NCBI GenBank assembly: GCA_947474995.1
Contig: CANJNJ010000051.1
Span: forward strand, 1 to 32,917
Direction: 5' to 3'
DNA: 32,917 nucleotides
Origin: Opitutaceae bacterium
Lineage (GTDB): Bacteria; Verrucomicrobiota; Verrucomicrobiia; Opitutales; Opitutaceae
A program made the position numbers and the translations under genes. Every line of letters starts with the position of its first letter. The stretch's first letter is position 1. A model generated the notes under the pieces. The model did no database searches and was not told the DNA's origin. It saw nothing but the letters and a program-made list of their open reading frames with translations. Positions 19,247 to 25,657 of this stretch are shown in pieces.

Positions 19247-21118
19247 TTAAAATTTCCATTCCGCGCCGGCGAATACTCCAAGACCCAGCGCCGGGTAGCC
19301 GTTCACGGGCTCGTATTTTTCATCGAGCAGATTTTCGAGGCGCACCTTGAGCGTCAGCCGCGGCGTGGCGCGCCAGGCTCCATAAAGCCGGACGACCGAG
19401 TAGTCCCTGGCATCAATTTGGGCGAAGGTCTTGGCGTCGACGTCGCGCCGGTGCACCACCCACGCGACACCGGCCCCCGCGCTCAGGCCGTGGGCGAAAT
19501 CGCGCGATCCGTCCAGATTGCCCATCTGTCGCGGACGCCGCAGCAGACGCGCGTGGGTCGTCAGGTTTTCGGCTTCGAGGTACGTGTAACTGAGTCGCGC
19601 CGCAATCGCCTTGGGCAGCGCCACCTGCAGCGACAGCTCCGTGCCCCGGGTTCGAGCATGCTGGATGTTTTCCACGCTGCGAAAATTCCGCGTGCTCGCG
19701 ATCAGATCGGTGAAATCGGTGTCGAACCACGTCGCGCTCAACGAGCCGCGTTGCGCCGGCAGATAATAGTCCGCCCCGGCGTCCCAGCCGCGGGCGGTTT
19801 CGGGACGCAGGTTCGGATTGCCGGCGTAGAACGCGCTTTGGCCGTAAAGATCCAGAAAGCTCGGCGAGCGAAACGCCGTGCCGTAGCTCGCGCGCAGCTT
19901 GAGCGACCGCTGCGCCACCAACCAAGCCGCCGTGGCCCGGCCCGTCGTGGCGCGACCAAACGTGTCGAAGTCGTCGCTGCGCAACCCGGCAGTGAGATGC
20001 ACGTCGTCGACCGGCGCAAATTCGTCCTGGGCAAAAACCGCCAGAAGCCCCTGCCGCCGGTTGATGTCGCCGAAGCCGGTGTTGCGCGTTTGATTCGCCT
20101 CCGCCGTCATCCCGGCCGTCAGGCGATGCCGCTCCGCCCCGGTGAACGTGGTCTGCGCATCGAGCACGCCGCGGCGATTTTTCACCAACGTAATCTGCGT
20201 GGCGCGGCCGACGCGGGGATTTTCCGAGACAAACCGGCGGTTCTGTCCCCCGAGCACGACATGTGCCGTCCACGCGTCGGCCAGCTTCGCGTCCACGAAC
20301 GCGGTCGCGAGCACGTTGTCCTCGCGCTCCTGATTGTCGGGATCGTTCGTGTAGCGATCCCCCGGATCGCCGTAGGCGCCATGAAACCAGCGGGCGGTGG
20401 CGCCGATCGAGACGCGCTCGCTCAGCTGGCGATCGAGCCGCAGCGTCGCGTTGGTCGAATCGAAGGAATTATTGGGGCGTTCGTTCTCCGTGTGTCCGCC
20501 CTGCAGCGAAAAATTCCAGGCGCCCGCCCCGCGTTCACCCTGCCCAGTCACCGTACCTTGCCGGGTCCCAAAGCTGCCCGCTTCCATCGCGATTTGCCCC
20601 GCCGGCGCTCCTGCGCCGCGCTGCGCCCGCAACGACACCACGCCGCCAACGGCTTCGCCACCGTAGAGCGTGCTCTGGGGACCGTGGGCGATCTCGAGAC
20701 TGTCGCAGGCGCTGACACACGCCCCGCCAAGAAAAACGGCGTAGTCGGTGTTCGGATCGTTGAGCCGCAGGCCATCCACCAGGAACAAAGTCTGATTCGA
20801 ATTCGAGCCGCGCAGGAAAAGCGAGGCGACCGCCCCATTCGCGCCCGAGGCGAAAAGCGGCGTGCCCGCCGCGGCGCCCAGCGCCGCGGCCAGTGAATTA
20901 ATCTGGCGGCGAGCCAGGTCCCCGGCCGCGAACGTGTCGACCACCGAACCGAGGGTTTGGGCATCCGCCGGCGTGCGGGTGGCCGTCGTGATGAAAGCCG
21001 GGAGTTGGGGCGGTGCCGTTTGCCCGCGAGCGACCGGCAAAAGGGCGGTCGTCCCGTGGACGAAGAGGACACCGAAAGCTCGGAGCACAAGGCGACGAGT
21101 AACGGAGGAGTGGGACAT
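19247..21118 (-). CDS. btuB: BtuB-like TonB-dependent cobalamin receptor
   Basis: This is an outer-membrane receptor of 623 residues, about the size of E. coli BtuB. The ATG chosen precedes a signal peptide (SVTRRLVLRAFGVLFVHGTT to ARGQ); a GTG 69 bases upstream adds an unlikely tail. A TonB-box-like ITTATRTP follows at about residue 43. The plug domain (to about residue 175) has FLRGSNSNQTLFLVDGLRLND and the GPQSTLYGGEAVGGVVSL signature. The barrel ends in GYPALGLGVFAGAEWKF, with a terminal aromatic residue. TonB, ExbB and ExbD power such receptors to bring B12 into the periplasm. A cobalamin riboswitch in its leader supports the call strongly. The B12-dependent methionine synthase lies divergently next door. 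Confidence 0.88.
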   Translation of the reverse strand: MSHSSVTRRLVLRAFGVLFVHGTTALLPVARGQTAPPQLPAFITTATRTPADAQTLGSVVDTFAAGDLARRQINSLAAALGAAAGTPLFASGANGAVASLFLRGSNSNQTLFLVDGLRLNDPNTDYAVFLGGACVSACDSLEIAHGPQSTLYGGEAVGGVVSLRAQRGAGAPAGQIAMEAGSFGTRQGTVTGQGERGAGAWNFSLQGGHTENERPNNSFDSTNATLRLDRQLSERVSIGATARWFHGAYGDPGDRYTNDPDNQEREDNVLATAFVDAKLADAWTAHVVLGGQNRRFVSENPRVGRATQITLVKNRRGVLDAQTTFTGAERHRLTAGMTAEANQTRNTGFGDINRRQGLLAVFAQDEFAPVDDVHLTAGLRSDDFDTFGRATTGRATAAWLVAQRSLKLRASYGTAFRSPSFLDLYGQSAFYAGNPNLRPETARGWDAGADYYLPAQRGSLSATWFDTDFTDLIASTRNFRSVENIQHARTRGTELSLQVALPKAIAARLSYTYLEAENLTTHARLLRRPRQMGNLDGSRDFAHGLSAGAGVAWVVHRRDVDAKTFAQIDARDYSVVRLYGAWRATPRLTLKVRLENLLDEKYEPVNGYPALGLGVFAGAEWKF

Positions 21119-21268
21119 GGGTGGCTGTGGTTTGACTGCGACAAGAGCAGAACCACCCGCCGGCGGCAGGGAAGGACCCACTCTCACGCTTCATTTTCTG
21201 CGATGAAGTTTTCGCGAAGGGCTCGAACCTCGGCTAAAGGCTCGGACCCGACGCGTGAGGATTTCCAG
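21119..21268 (-). promoter_or_regulatory. Expression platform region of the btuB leader
   Basis: The 150 bases between the riboswitch aptamer and the btuB ATG can form a stem from CTCACGC and GCGTGAG (21253-21259 with 21183-21189). A competing hairpin from CTTCAT and ATGAAG (21189-21208) overlaps its right arm, and such alternatives are typical of expression platforms. No good Shine-Dalgarno sequence precedes the ATG. The mode of control, transcriptional or translational, cannot be decided. Confidence 0.4.
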
Positions 21269-21301
21269 GGCAGATGTTCGGACTCCGCATGTCGCGCGCC
21301 A

Positions 21302-21402
21302 CGCGCGCGAAAGTAACATGGATCAAGTCGCCAAGGATCAAGGGCTGGCCTTCGCCCCCCTCTTCAGACCTGGAACTTGCTACCTGAAACTTCACGCGCG
21401 CG
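21302..21402. repeat. Palindromic repeat B inside the riboswitch
   Basis: This 101-bp imperfect inverted repeat has ends CGCGCGCGAAAGT and ACTTCACGCGCGCG. Each half contains shortened direct repeats (GGATCAAG twice on the left, ACCTG-AACTT twice on the right). It is related to repeat A, with which it shares GCGCGAAAGT-CATG at the left end and TGGAACTT near the right. It lies between the kissing-loop hairpin and the B12 box of the riboswitch. Confidence 0.7.
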
Positions 21403-21469
21403 GCGCTTCCTCGCCCGCGCCTTCACCTCCGACAAAAGTCGGCGATTGGCTGTGCCCGGAGCGCGCCCG

Positions 21470-21545
21470 GCGCGAAAGTTTCATGTCACGAGGAACAAGA
21501 CTCGGCCTTGCTGGCCTCCATCTTGTCACTTGGAACTTTACGCGC
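21470..21545. repeat. Palindromic repeat A inside the riboswitch
   Basis: This 76-bp imperfect inverted repeat has ends GCGCGAAAGTTTCATG and GGAACTTTACGCGC. The arms continue through GTCAC and CAAGA, and the tip is a GGCC-TTGCT-GGCC hairpin. It lies between the conserved GGTAA core of the riboswitch and the kissing-loop hairpin. It would fold as its own rod-like stem-loop in the RNA. Confidence 0.7.
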
Positions 21546-21655
21546 CGCTCGCGCAACCCGGTGCGGGTCTGTGATGCGTTACCGCAGCGAGAACTGTGGC
21601 CGGTTTTCACGGCCTTCCCTGCTGACCGGAATGGACAAGGAACGACGAACCTGCC

Positions 21656-21774
21656 GACGGCACTCCGGCCAGGTAGCCACCGCAAGCCCAAATTGGAATA
21701 TGACGCATCAACGAATTCCCATGCGTAGATATGTGACTTGCCAACGTCTCCCCCCGACCTAGCGTTGGACCAAC
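21656..21774 (+). promoter_or_regulatory. Divergent btuB/metH promoter region and metH leader hairpin
   Basis: This 119-bp stretch must hold the btuB promoter (minus strand) and the metH promoter (plus strand). No convincing -35/-10 pair could be singled out. Next to the metH start the arms CCAACG and CGTTGG (21741-21768) form a hairpin, followed at once by CCAAC before the ATG. It does not match a SAM or cobalamin riboswitch. A GGA six bases before the ATG is the only ribosome-binding-like element. Confidence 0.4.
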
Positions 21775-22836
21775 ATGGATTCCGCCGCCCAAGCCTTGCA
21801 GGCCCTGTTCGCGTCCCGCATCGTCGTCCTCGATGGCGCGATGGGGTCGATGATTCAGACCTACCAGCTAAGCGAGGCGGACTTTCGGGGTGAGCGCTTC
21901 AAGTCCCATCCGCATGATCTCCAGGGCAACAACGACCTCCTTAGCCTCACGCGTCCGGACGTCATCGAAAAAATCCACGGGGATTACTTCGCCGCTGGCG
22001 CCGACCTTGTCGAAACCAACACCTTCAGTTCCACGGCCATCGGCCAATCCGACTACCAACTCGCCGCGGCCATACGCGATATCAACCTCGCCGCGGTGAC
22101 CTGCGCTCGTCGCGCCGCCCGACGGGCCGAGGCCGCCGCTCCCGGCCGGCGCTGTTTCGTGGCCGGCGCGATCGGGCCGCTCAACCGCACCCTCTCGATG
22201 TCGCCCGACGTGAATCGCCCCGATTATCGCGCGGTGACGTGGGAGCAGGTGGTGACCGGCTACACCGAACAAATCTGCGCGCTGCTCGATGGCGGCGTCG
22301 ACGCGCTGCTCGTCGAGACGATCTTCGACACCCTGAATGCCAAGGCCGCGCTTTTTGCCATTGAGTCCGTCTTTGACGAACGCGGGGACGCGGCGCGTGT
22401 ACCAGTCATGATCAGCGTCACGATCACCGACGCCTCAGGGCGCACCCTGTCCGGCCAGACGGTCGGTGCCTTCTACACCAGCGTGGCCCATGCGAAGCCC
22501 TTTTCAGTCGGCATCAACTGCGCGCTCGGCGGTGACGCGATGCGACCCTACGTCGAGGAACTTGCCAGCATCGCCGGTTGTTACGTCACGTGCTATCCAA
22601 ACGCCGGACTGCCCAATGCCTTCGGCGGCTACGACGAGACCCCGGCCGACATGGCCAGAGTCCTGGGCGATTTCGCAGCCAACGGTTGGGTCAATCTCGT
22701 CGGTGGCTGCTGCGGCTCCACCCCAGCCCACATTGCGGCGATCGCCCAGGCCGTCAAAGGCACGGCTCCCCGCCTTCGGCCCACGACGACCCCGGCGCTG
22801 CGCCTGAGCGGGCTGGAGGCCATGGCCGTCGCGTGA
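21775..22836 (+). CDS. metH: Methionine synthase, homocysteine-binding module (MetH N-terminal part)
   Basis: This 353-residue protein equals the first domain of cobalamin-dependent methionine synthase, which binds zinc and homocysteine and takes the methyl group from methylcobalamin. It begins with [24 protein letters not shown], characteristic of MetH. The three zinc cysteines are visible, one in GINCALGG and two adjacent in [11 protein letters not shown] near the C-terminus. In E. coli this module is fused to the rest of a 1227-residue protein; here it ends in a normal stop, and the remaining modules follow 82 bases later in another frame. The two proteins should work as a complex. A stand-alone betaine- or S-methylmethionine-homocysteine methyltransferase is less likely, given the neighbour. 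Confidence 0.9.
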
Positions 22837-22918
22837 ACAAGTTTTATGTTAGCCGTCGCTGCCCGGACGACCATCGTCGCCTGACCACGACGGGCTTTTG
22901 GTCCTTCGCTTCCTAACC

Positions 22919-25657
<2,739 letters not shown>

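Follow-up and report, generated by a model that had tools for sequence, protein, structure and literature searches.

The locus described here has its nearest precedent in the P6b stem of the Nostoc tRNA-Leu(UAA) intron, which contains seven-base motifs, measures 50–126 nt in one type, and has had its motif classes replaced repeatedly (PMC4476775). Palindromes also occur inside structured RNA genes of Rickettsia, where elements of about 105–146 bp lie in tmRNA and M1 RNA (PMC2229807). In Opitutus terrae, which belongs to the same group as our organism, GTAG REPs are abundant palindromes spread through the genome that enter genes, some genes twice (PMC3733652). We compared these systems with a cobalamin riboswitch found in the window, by which we mean the whole stretch of 32,917 nt that was analysed, which is contig 51 of an Opitutaceae draft genome of 5.24 Mb in 261 contigs. 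The riboswitch contains two palindromes, here called R1 (5') and R2 (3').

The window's riboswitch resembles the btuB-leader riboswitches of RF00174 in its core, B12 box, P1, P7/P8-type helices, loop L5, downstream L13 and gene context. It differs from them in its length of 387 nt, in having peripheral hairpins as long as about 94 and 111 nt at two positions, and in its RF00174 score, which was 24.1 bits against a curated cut-off of 31.5. As in the Nostoc stem, seven-base motifs pair in a peripheral stem of variable length within a structured RNA; unlike that stem, ours belongs to a riboswitch from another phylum, has other motifs, and shares its motif with other places in the genome. Rickettsia palindromic element families are defined by sequence, whereas the palindromes here share a period, a short core and an orientation. 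In contrast to the Opitutus terrae REPs, R1 and R2 carry no GTAG tag and have no near-identical copies. Further papers reportedly deal with RNase P RNA (Vioque), the tRNA-Leu intron (Costa) and small cyanobacterial repeats (Elhai). Searches of the open-licence PMC literature turned up no riboswitch described as holding palindromes of this kind, and such a description may exist elsewhere.

Our main reading, to which we assign a probability of about 0.7, is that the window holds a probably working btuB-leader cobalamin riboswitch, and that in each of two peripheral hairpins a diverged member of a palindrome family has made the hairpin longer; this family is dispersed, directional and seven-base periodic (CAAGTNN running inward, NNACTTG running back). 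The core and the helices are kept, the palindromes sit at hairpin positions, the period is present in both of them, heptads occur elsewhere in the genome, and the 3' hairpin has changed repeatedly across relatives. The features of the locus are collected in Table 1.

Table 1. Features of the riboswitch locus, in positions of the window, listed in the order of transcription of the minus strand except for the last row.
Feature	Position	Strand	Evidence
Cobalamin riboswitch aptamer, P1 to P1, 387 nt	21269–21655	-	sequence, RF00174, family model, invariant residues
P1 5' strand, GGCAGGU	21649–21655	-	direct reading
Loop L5, UUCUCG (UUGCG in most relatives)	21588–21593	-	loop comparison
P7 5' strand, CGCAU	21574–21578	-	5 pairs kept in 127 of 137 aptamers
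P8 5' strand, CCCGC	21563–21567	-	5 of 5 pairs change on both sides (20 relatives)
R1, 5' palindrome with seven-base periodic arms, enlarges the P9-position hairpin	21461–21554	-	z -4.0; 5' arm lag 7, p ≤ 0.004
Conserved middle hairpin AGCCAAUC...GGUGAAGGC, P10/P11 position	21419–21454	-	covariation in relatives
P8 3' strand, GCGGG	21414–21418	-	two-sided changes; window duplex CCCGC/GCGGG
R2, 3' palindrome with seven-base periodic arms, replaces the P12-position hairpin	21296–21406	-	z -5.3; lag 7 best, p ≤ 0.003
P7 3' strand, AUGCG	21286–21290	-	fully paired in 127 of 137 aptamers
P1 3' strand, AUCUGCC	21269–21275	-	direct reading
P13 region, CUCACGC/GCGUGAG around hairpin CUUCAU(CGCAGAAA)AUGAAG	21183–21259	-	sequence
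BtuB-like TonB-dependent receptor gene	19247–21118	-	Plug and beta-barrel domains; open frame
B12-dependent methionine synthase, divergent, two open frames	21775–25657	+	domain matches

An earlier note on this DNA had proposed that a BtuB-like gene is preceded by a cobalamin riboswitch, a proposal borne out by a family model, by invariant residues and by the gene context. Both strands of P1, the GGGAA...CGCTGCGGTAA core, the AGTCCGAACATCTGCC box and the CGCAT/ATGCG helix were all on the minus strand where the note had placed them, and its element length was confirmed. The RF00174 match covered 21545–21655 (E = 4e-4), its alignment stopping before it had passed R1. Across 57 genomes (the window's own and those of relatives), the same model gave a match at E ≤ 0.01 in 17 and a match above the cut-off in 10. 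The argument that removal of the repeats leaves an aptamer of the usual size also holds, because RF00174 matches within the genus spanned up to about 250 nt and reached 49.6 bits. This locus illustrates how riboswitches expanded in such a way can escape a standard search by RNA family model.

A family model, which was built from 20 unexpanded family aptamers, scored 58.7 bits at 21401–21614 with 96 bases left unaligned at R1, and 11.0 bits on the part holding the B12 box (21265–21361). With default filters the matches were 21489–21619 (55.1 bits) and 21265–21411 (12.6 bits). No match of this model bridged R2, because the 58.7-bit match put the 3' strand of P7 inside R2. The window kept 66 of the 67 residues that were invariant in the 20 unexpanded relatives; that is, the core and the B12 box were retained, and the single exception lay in loop L5. 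The core motif was present in 133 of 252 family genomes, and at least 119 stretches of named genomes carried it, mostly from Verrucomicrobiota and many from Opitutaceae. Merging identical aptamers gave a family set of 137 distinct aptamers, which are thus counts of sequences and not of genomes; five core-motif loci, of which one belonged to the family set, were dropped for lack of a B12-box match in reach. The window's aptamer was the longest of the 137 (355 nt within the limits that the script set).

The helix names P7 to P12 are assigned by position. P7 kept its pairing across the family in several letter versions (Table 1) and was nearly invariant among the 20 relatives. A permissive search recovered a P8-like duplex of at least four pairs in 116 of the 137 aptamers. 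Covariation in the 20 relatives extended to all five pairs of P8, to the middle hairpin and to four of four pairs of the 3' hairpin, and two-sided cells numbered 65 against 17.6 in shuffles, on a structure predicted from the same 20-relative alignment. The placement of both repeats inside P7 was correct, with the amendment that R1 also lies inside P8, whereas R2 lies between P8 and P7. R1 sits at the tip of the 5' hairpin, where the halves of the native hairpin adjoin it in the alignment; R2 replaces the 3' hairpin. The latter hairpin can be absent, as it is from loci L300 and L305. The earlier note was supported in that both palindromes lie at peripheral hairpin positions, which vary in length among relatives, and in that the core is kept.

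The names L5, P13 and L13, and the role given to the L5–L13 contact, follow PMC10653944. The hairpin between the repeats had been presumed to be the kissing-loop hairpin, an assignment that we do not follow: the likelier partner of L5 is the loop at 21202–21195 in the P13 region, downstream of the B12 box, which is able to pair with it (AGAA/UUCU). In the 106 family aptamers with both loops, L5 UUGCG faced a CGCAA loop with five pairs in 73, and only three contiguous pairs were possible in 21. An L13 match was absent from 31 of the 137 aptamers, and some members of the family pair the two loops only loosely. The window's L5 was unique among the 137, as was its L13, CGCAGAAA, among the 106 with a match. 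Despite the changes in both loops, four contiguous pairs are possible in the window, and six can be drawn by eye with one bulge; bulged L5–L13 pairs have been reported (PMC10653944).

Because the core is intact and the altered L5 and L13 can still pair, a working switch is favoured, and judged from its sequence the riboswitch probably still works. We weighed this against decay, in which a dead riboswitch would simply be collecting repeats. Decay would fit an aptamer that is the longest in its family, falls below the RF00174 cut-off and has a changed L5, but it sits poorly with the invariant residues kept, with P1, P7 and P8 that still pair, with an L5 and L13 that have both changed and can nevertheless pair, and with an open BtuB frame; we consider it very unlikely. 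If the switch works, plentiful cobalamin would still lower BtuB, most likely through P13. The palindromes may be tolerated in that their self-folding would leave P7, P8 and the L5–L13 contact able to form.

Each enlarged hairpin folded better than all 200 of its dinucleotide shuffles (21294–21408 for R2 and 21455–21555 for R1; z values in Table 1). The two repeats were present as the earlier note had described them, with limits that by fold were slightly wider than its 21302–21402 and 21470–21545. An exact-seed repeat finder run over 21000–21900 listed no inverted repeat, because the arms of R1 and R2 are imperfect; it did return a 25-nt direct match between them (76% identity). Lag 7 was the best of lags 3–15 in both of the window's arms (p ≤ 0.004). 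On the transcribed strand CAAG comes first and CTTG later in R1 and R2 as read by eye, which is the inward order. The loose motif CARGTNN had 16 matches in the whole window, where 7.5 were expected, and eight of the 16 lay inside R1 and R2. The exact CAAG-heptad palindrome pattern was absent from R1 and R2, and the window's aptamer was not among the 11 of 137 that contained it. Membership of R1 and R2 in a family is thus argued from the period and the loose motif, because neither exact pattern matched.

We then asked how common such arms are among the family aptamers. The 3' arm measured at least 80 nt in 33 of the 137, and in two runs of the period test lag 7 had p < 0.01 in 24 and 22 of the 33, respectively; it was the best lag in 26 of the 33 in both runs. 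The long arms with p ≥ 0.01 numbered nine in the first run (four of them above 0.05) and 11 in the second. The test covered 3' arms of at least 45 nt, leaving out 46 of 137 that were shorter, and among the 58 arms of 45–79 nt a single one had p < 0.01, with lag 7 best in four or five. On the 5' side, nine of the 137 aptamers had arms of at least 60 nt, and the window's arm alone had p < 0.01 among the 85 of at least 45 nt. Set against the 22–24 periodic arms of the 33 long ones on the 3' side, this agrees with the view that a double event, as the note had supposed, is unusual.

The motifs of the long arms varied, being CAAGTNN in 13 (the window included) and CAAANNN, AAATNNN or RAATGNC in others as read by eye. 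In the 13 CAAGT arms, when folded (37 heptads), the CAAG core was paired at 92–95%, and the two spacer bases at 62% and 35%, the last base having the lower value. GC-rich clamps were seen by eye beside the arms in many aptamers. Loci L061, L062, L059, L272 and L289 had 3' arms of 99–186 nt in which the seven-base period was not clear, indicating that other expansions occur at the same 3' place.

To follow these states across relatives we used a tree of BtuB with 124 rows; a BtuB homologue lay behind 126 of the 137 aptamers, 11 had no BtuB match, and the tree omits two of the 126 as too short. At least 13 changes were required for the heptad state, which 23 rows show, and 19 for the long-arm state, counts that do not separate gain from loss, on a tree in which 49 of 121 inner branches were weak. 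An old insertion at the 3' hairpin, shared by descent and followed by many losses, could therefore stand in place of repeated gains. Palindromes are prone to deletion, and in the row nearest the window, L273, the arm is 76 nt long and only weakly periodic (lag 7 is the best lag, at p = 0.048); it could be a remnant. We nevertheless find this history doubtful, because the sister rows L308 and L309 carry different motifs, CAAGT and CAAA, at the site.

Locus L293 carries 133 bp at a position where L290 and L298, which are close kin and nearly identical to it, have 2 bp and lack a hairpin. No target-site duplication was seen by eye at the L293 site, and no close second copy of the insert was found in its own genome (83% complete). 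Likewise, a DNA comparison of R1 and R2 with their own genome gave no close second copy of either, only short GC-rich matches at the 19 places inspected. The description of the palindromes as mobile is therefore upheld in one respect, the insertion-type difference between close relatives, and unsupported in another, since no close second copy of either lies in the genome. Based on L293 and its kin, the arrival of the palindromes looks like insertion, from a source that the lack of second copies leaves unseen; in the main reading, the palindromes would have come by insertion into hairpin tips.

The lack of second copies would be expected if no element had moved at all and native hairpins had instead grown in place, by seven-base slippage on one arm and correction of the other by template switching. 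Template switching inside a hairpin is the basis of quasipalindrome correction, and the strong pairing of the CAAG core beside a last spacer base that is mostly unpaired would also fit such growth. In the Nostoc tRNA-Leu intron, the P6b stem with its seven-base repeats is reported to vary by indels and in repeat number (PMC4476775). However, independent growth would hardly be expected to place the same motif at many unrelated sites of one genome, L293 differs from its kin by 133 bp at once, and the GC-rich clamps that flank many arms count against it as well. We judge growth in place to be a serious but less probable alternative to insertion of members of a dispersed family.

Evidence for that family came from the 252 family genomes. 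The exact motif CAAGTNNCAAGTNNCAAG was found in 67 of them; the window's own genome had four matches against none for the control, which was non-empty in other genomes. With one mismatch allowed, matches in the own genome numbered 24, and the reversed control gave 19. Inward CAAG/CTTG palindromes were matched 380 times, in 48 of the 252 genomes, and the outward form 16 times, in eight. A reversed-letter control of the palindrome pattern was not low, with 157 matches in 52 of 252 genomes, including 12 in the own genome that proved to be GTAG-type REP doublets, another family. In a strict test for a partner arm at the 21 motif loci readable on the given strand, six were inward, none outward and 15 without partner; many heptad runs are thus not strict palindromes, because 15 of the 21 had no strict partner arm. 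A larger count of 55 loci (39 inward, none outward, 16 partnerless) is biased, as some of these loci were fetched with the inward pattern.

In the own genome, lag 7 had p ≤ 0.0034 at nine of 15 tested places, a set from which the window's own riboswitch matches and repeat occurrences of a single element had been removed; the result is partly circular because the motif was used to find the places. Folding z at the nine places was modest, from -0.8 to -3.9, with two of 29 controls below -3. No known RNA family reached its curated cut-off at the 40 dispersed heptad loci scanned. Taken with the period and orientation of R1 and R2, the heptad counts suggest that the two palindromes belong, in diverged form, to a dispersed family. 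Of the 380 inward palindromes, 19 lay inside 11 of the 137 aptamers; the share held by btuB riboswitches is large for so short a site, and it is inflated by inherited copies. The length of stop-free frames was tried as an intergenic marker and proved uninformative in these GC-rich genomes (median 338 codons for elements, 395 for controls). Two genomes, G065 and G179, each contained several outward CTTG...CAAG palindromes with arms alike, perhaps a separate repeat family.

The GTAG-type doublets of the own genome (12 places, loci L401 to L412) have arms like GTTCGTAGTTCCGCCTTCAGGCGGAA. They raise the alternative that R1 and R2 are REP doublets of the REPIN kind, moved by Y1 transposases (RAYTs). 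The own genome has seven Y1_Tnp matches, and the REPs of Opitutus terrae described above are plentiful, enter genes and do so twice in some. The presence of Y1_Tnp carries little information, because it was found in 216 of 252 genomes. Judged by eye, the own doublets have near-identical arms; R1 and R2 differ from them in this and also have no close copies. Given these differences and the missing GTAG tag, we rated a REPIN origin as highly improbable.

Our main reading points to a class of palindromes with a seemingly conserved shape and an unconserved sequence, for which no moving enzyme was found. A bolder version, offered tentatively and thought improbable, is that the class is kept by its form, so that the letters change but the seven-base period, the inward orientation and the GC clamp stay. 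A process would then install such palindromes preferentially in hairpin tips, with the btuB riboswitch as a hot spot and the window's riboswitch hit at two tips. The family also provides, ready-made by nature, versions of one riboswitch that do or do not carry long inserts at two defined tips, so that one can measure directly how well an RNA switch tolerates insertion.

The 387-nt element (21269–21655, minus strand) lies in the leader of the BtuB-like gene, and so upstream of a B12-related gene; the receptor is inferred to import B12. In the divergent methionine synthase, the frame at 21775–22836 (plus strand, 353 aa) is the homocysteine-binding part, and that at 22898–25657 (plus strand) has the pterin, B12 and activation domains. 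Several leaders contain CUGCUCUU after P13 (21118–21183 in the window, minus strand), and by eye its pairing with GAGAG, where P13 ends, looks possible; the two would then form a candidate alternative stem for the expression platform.
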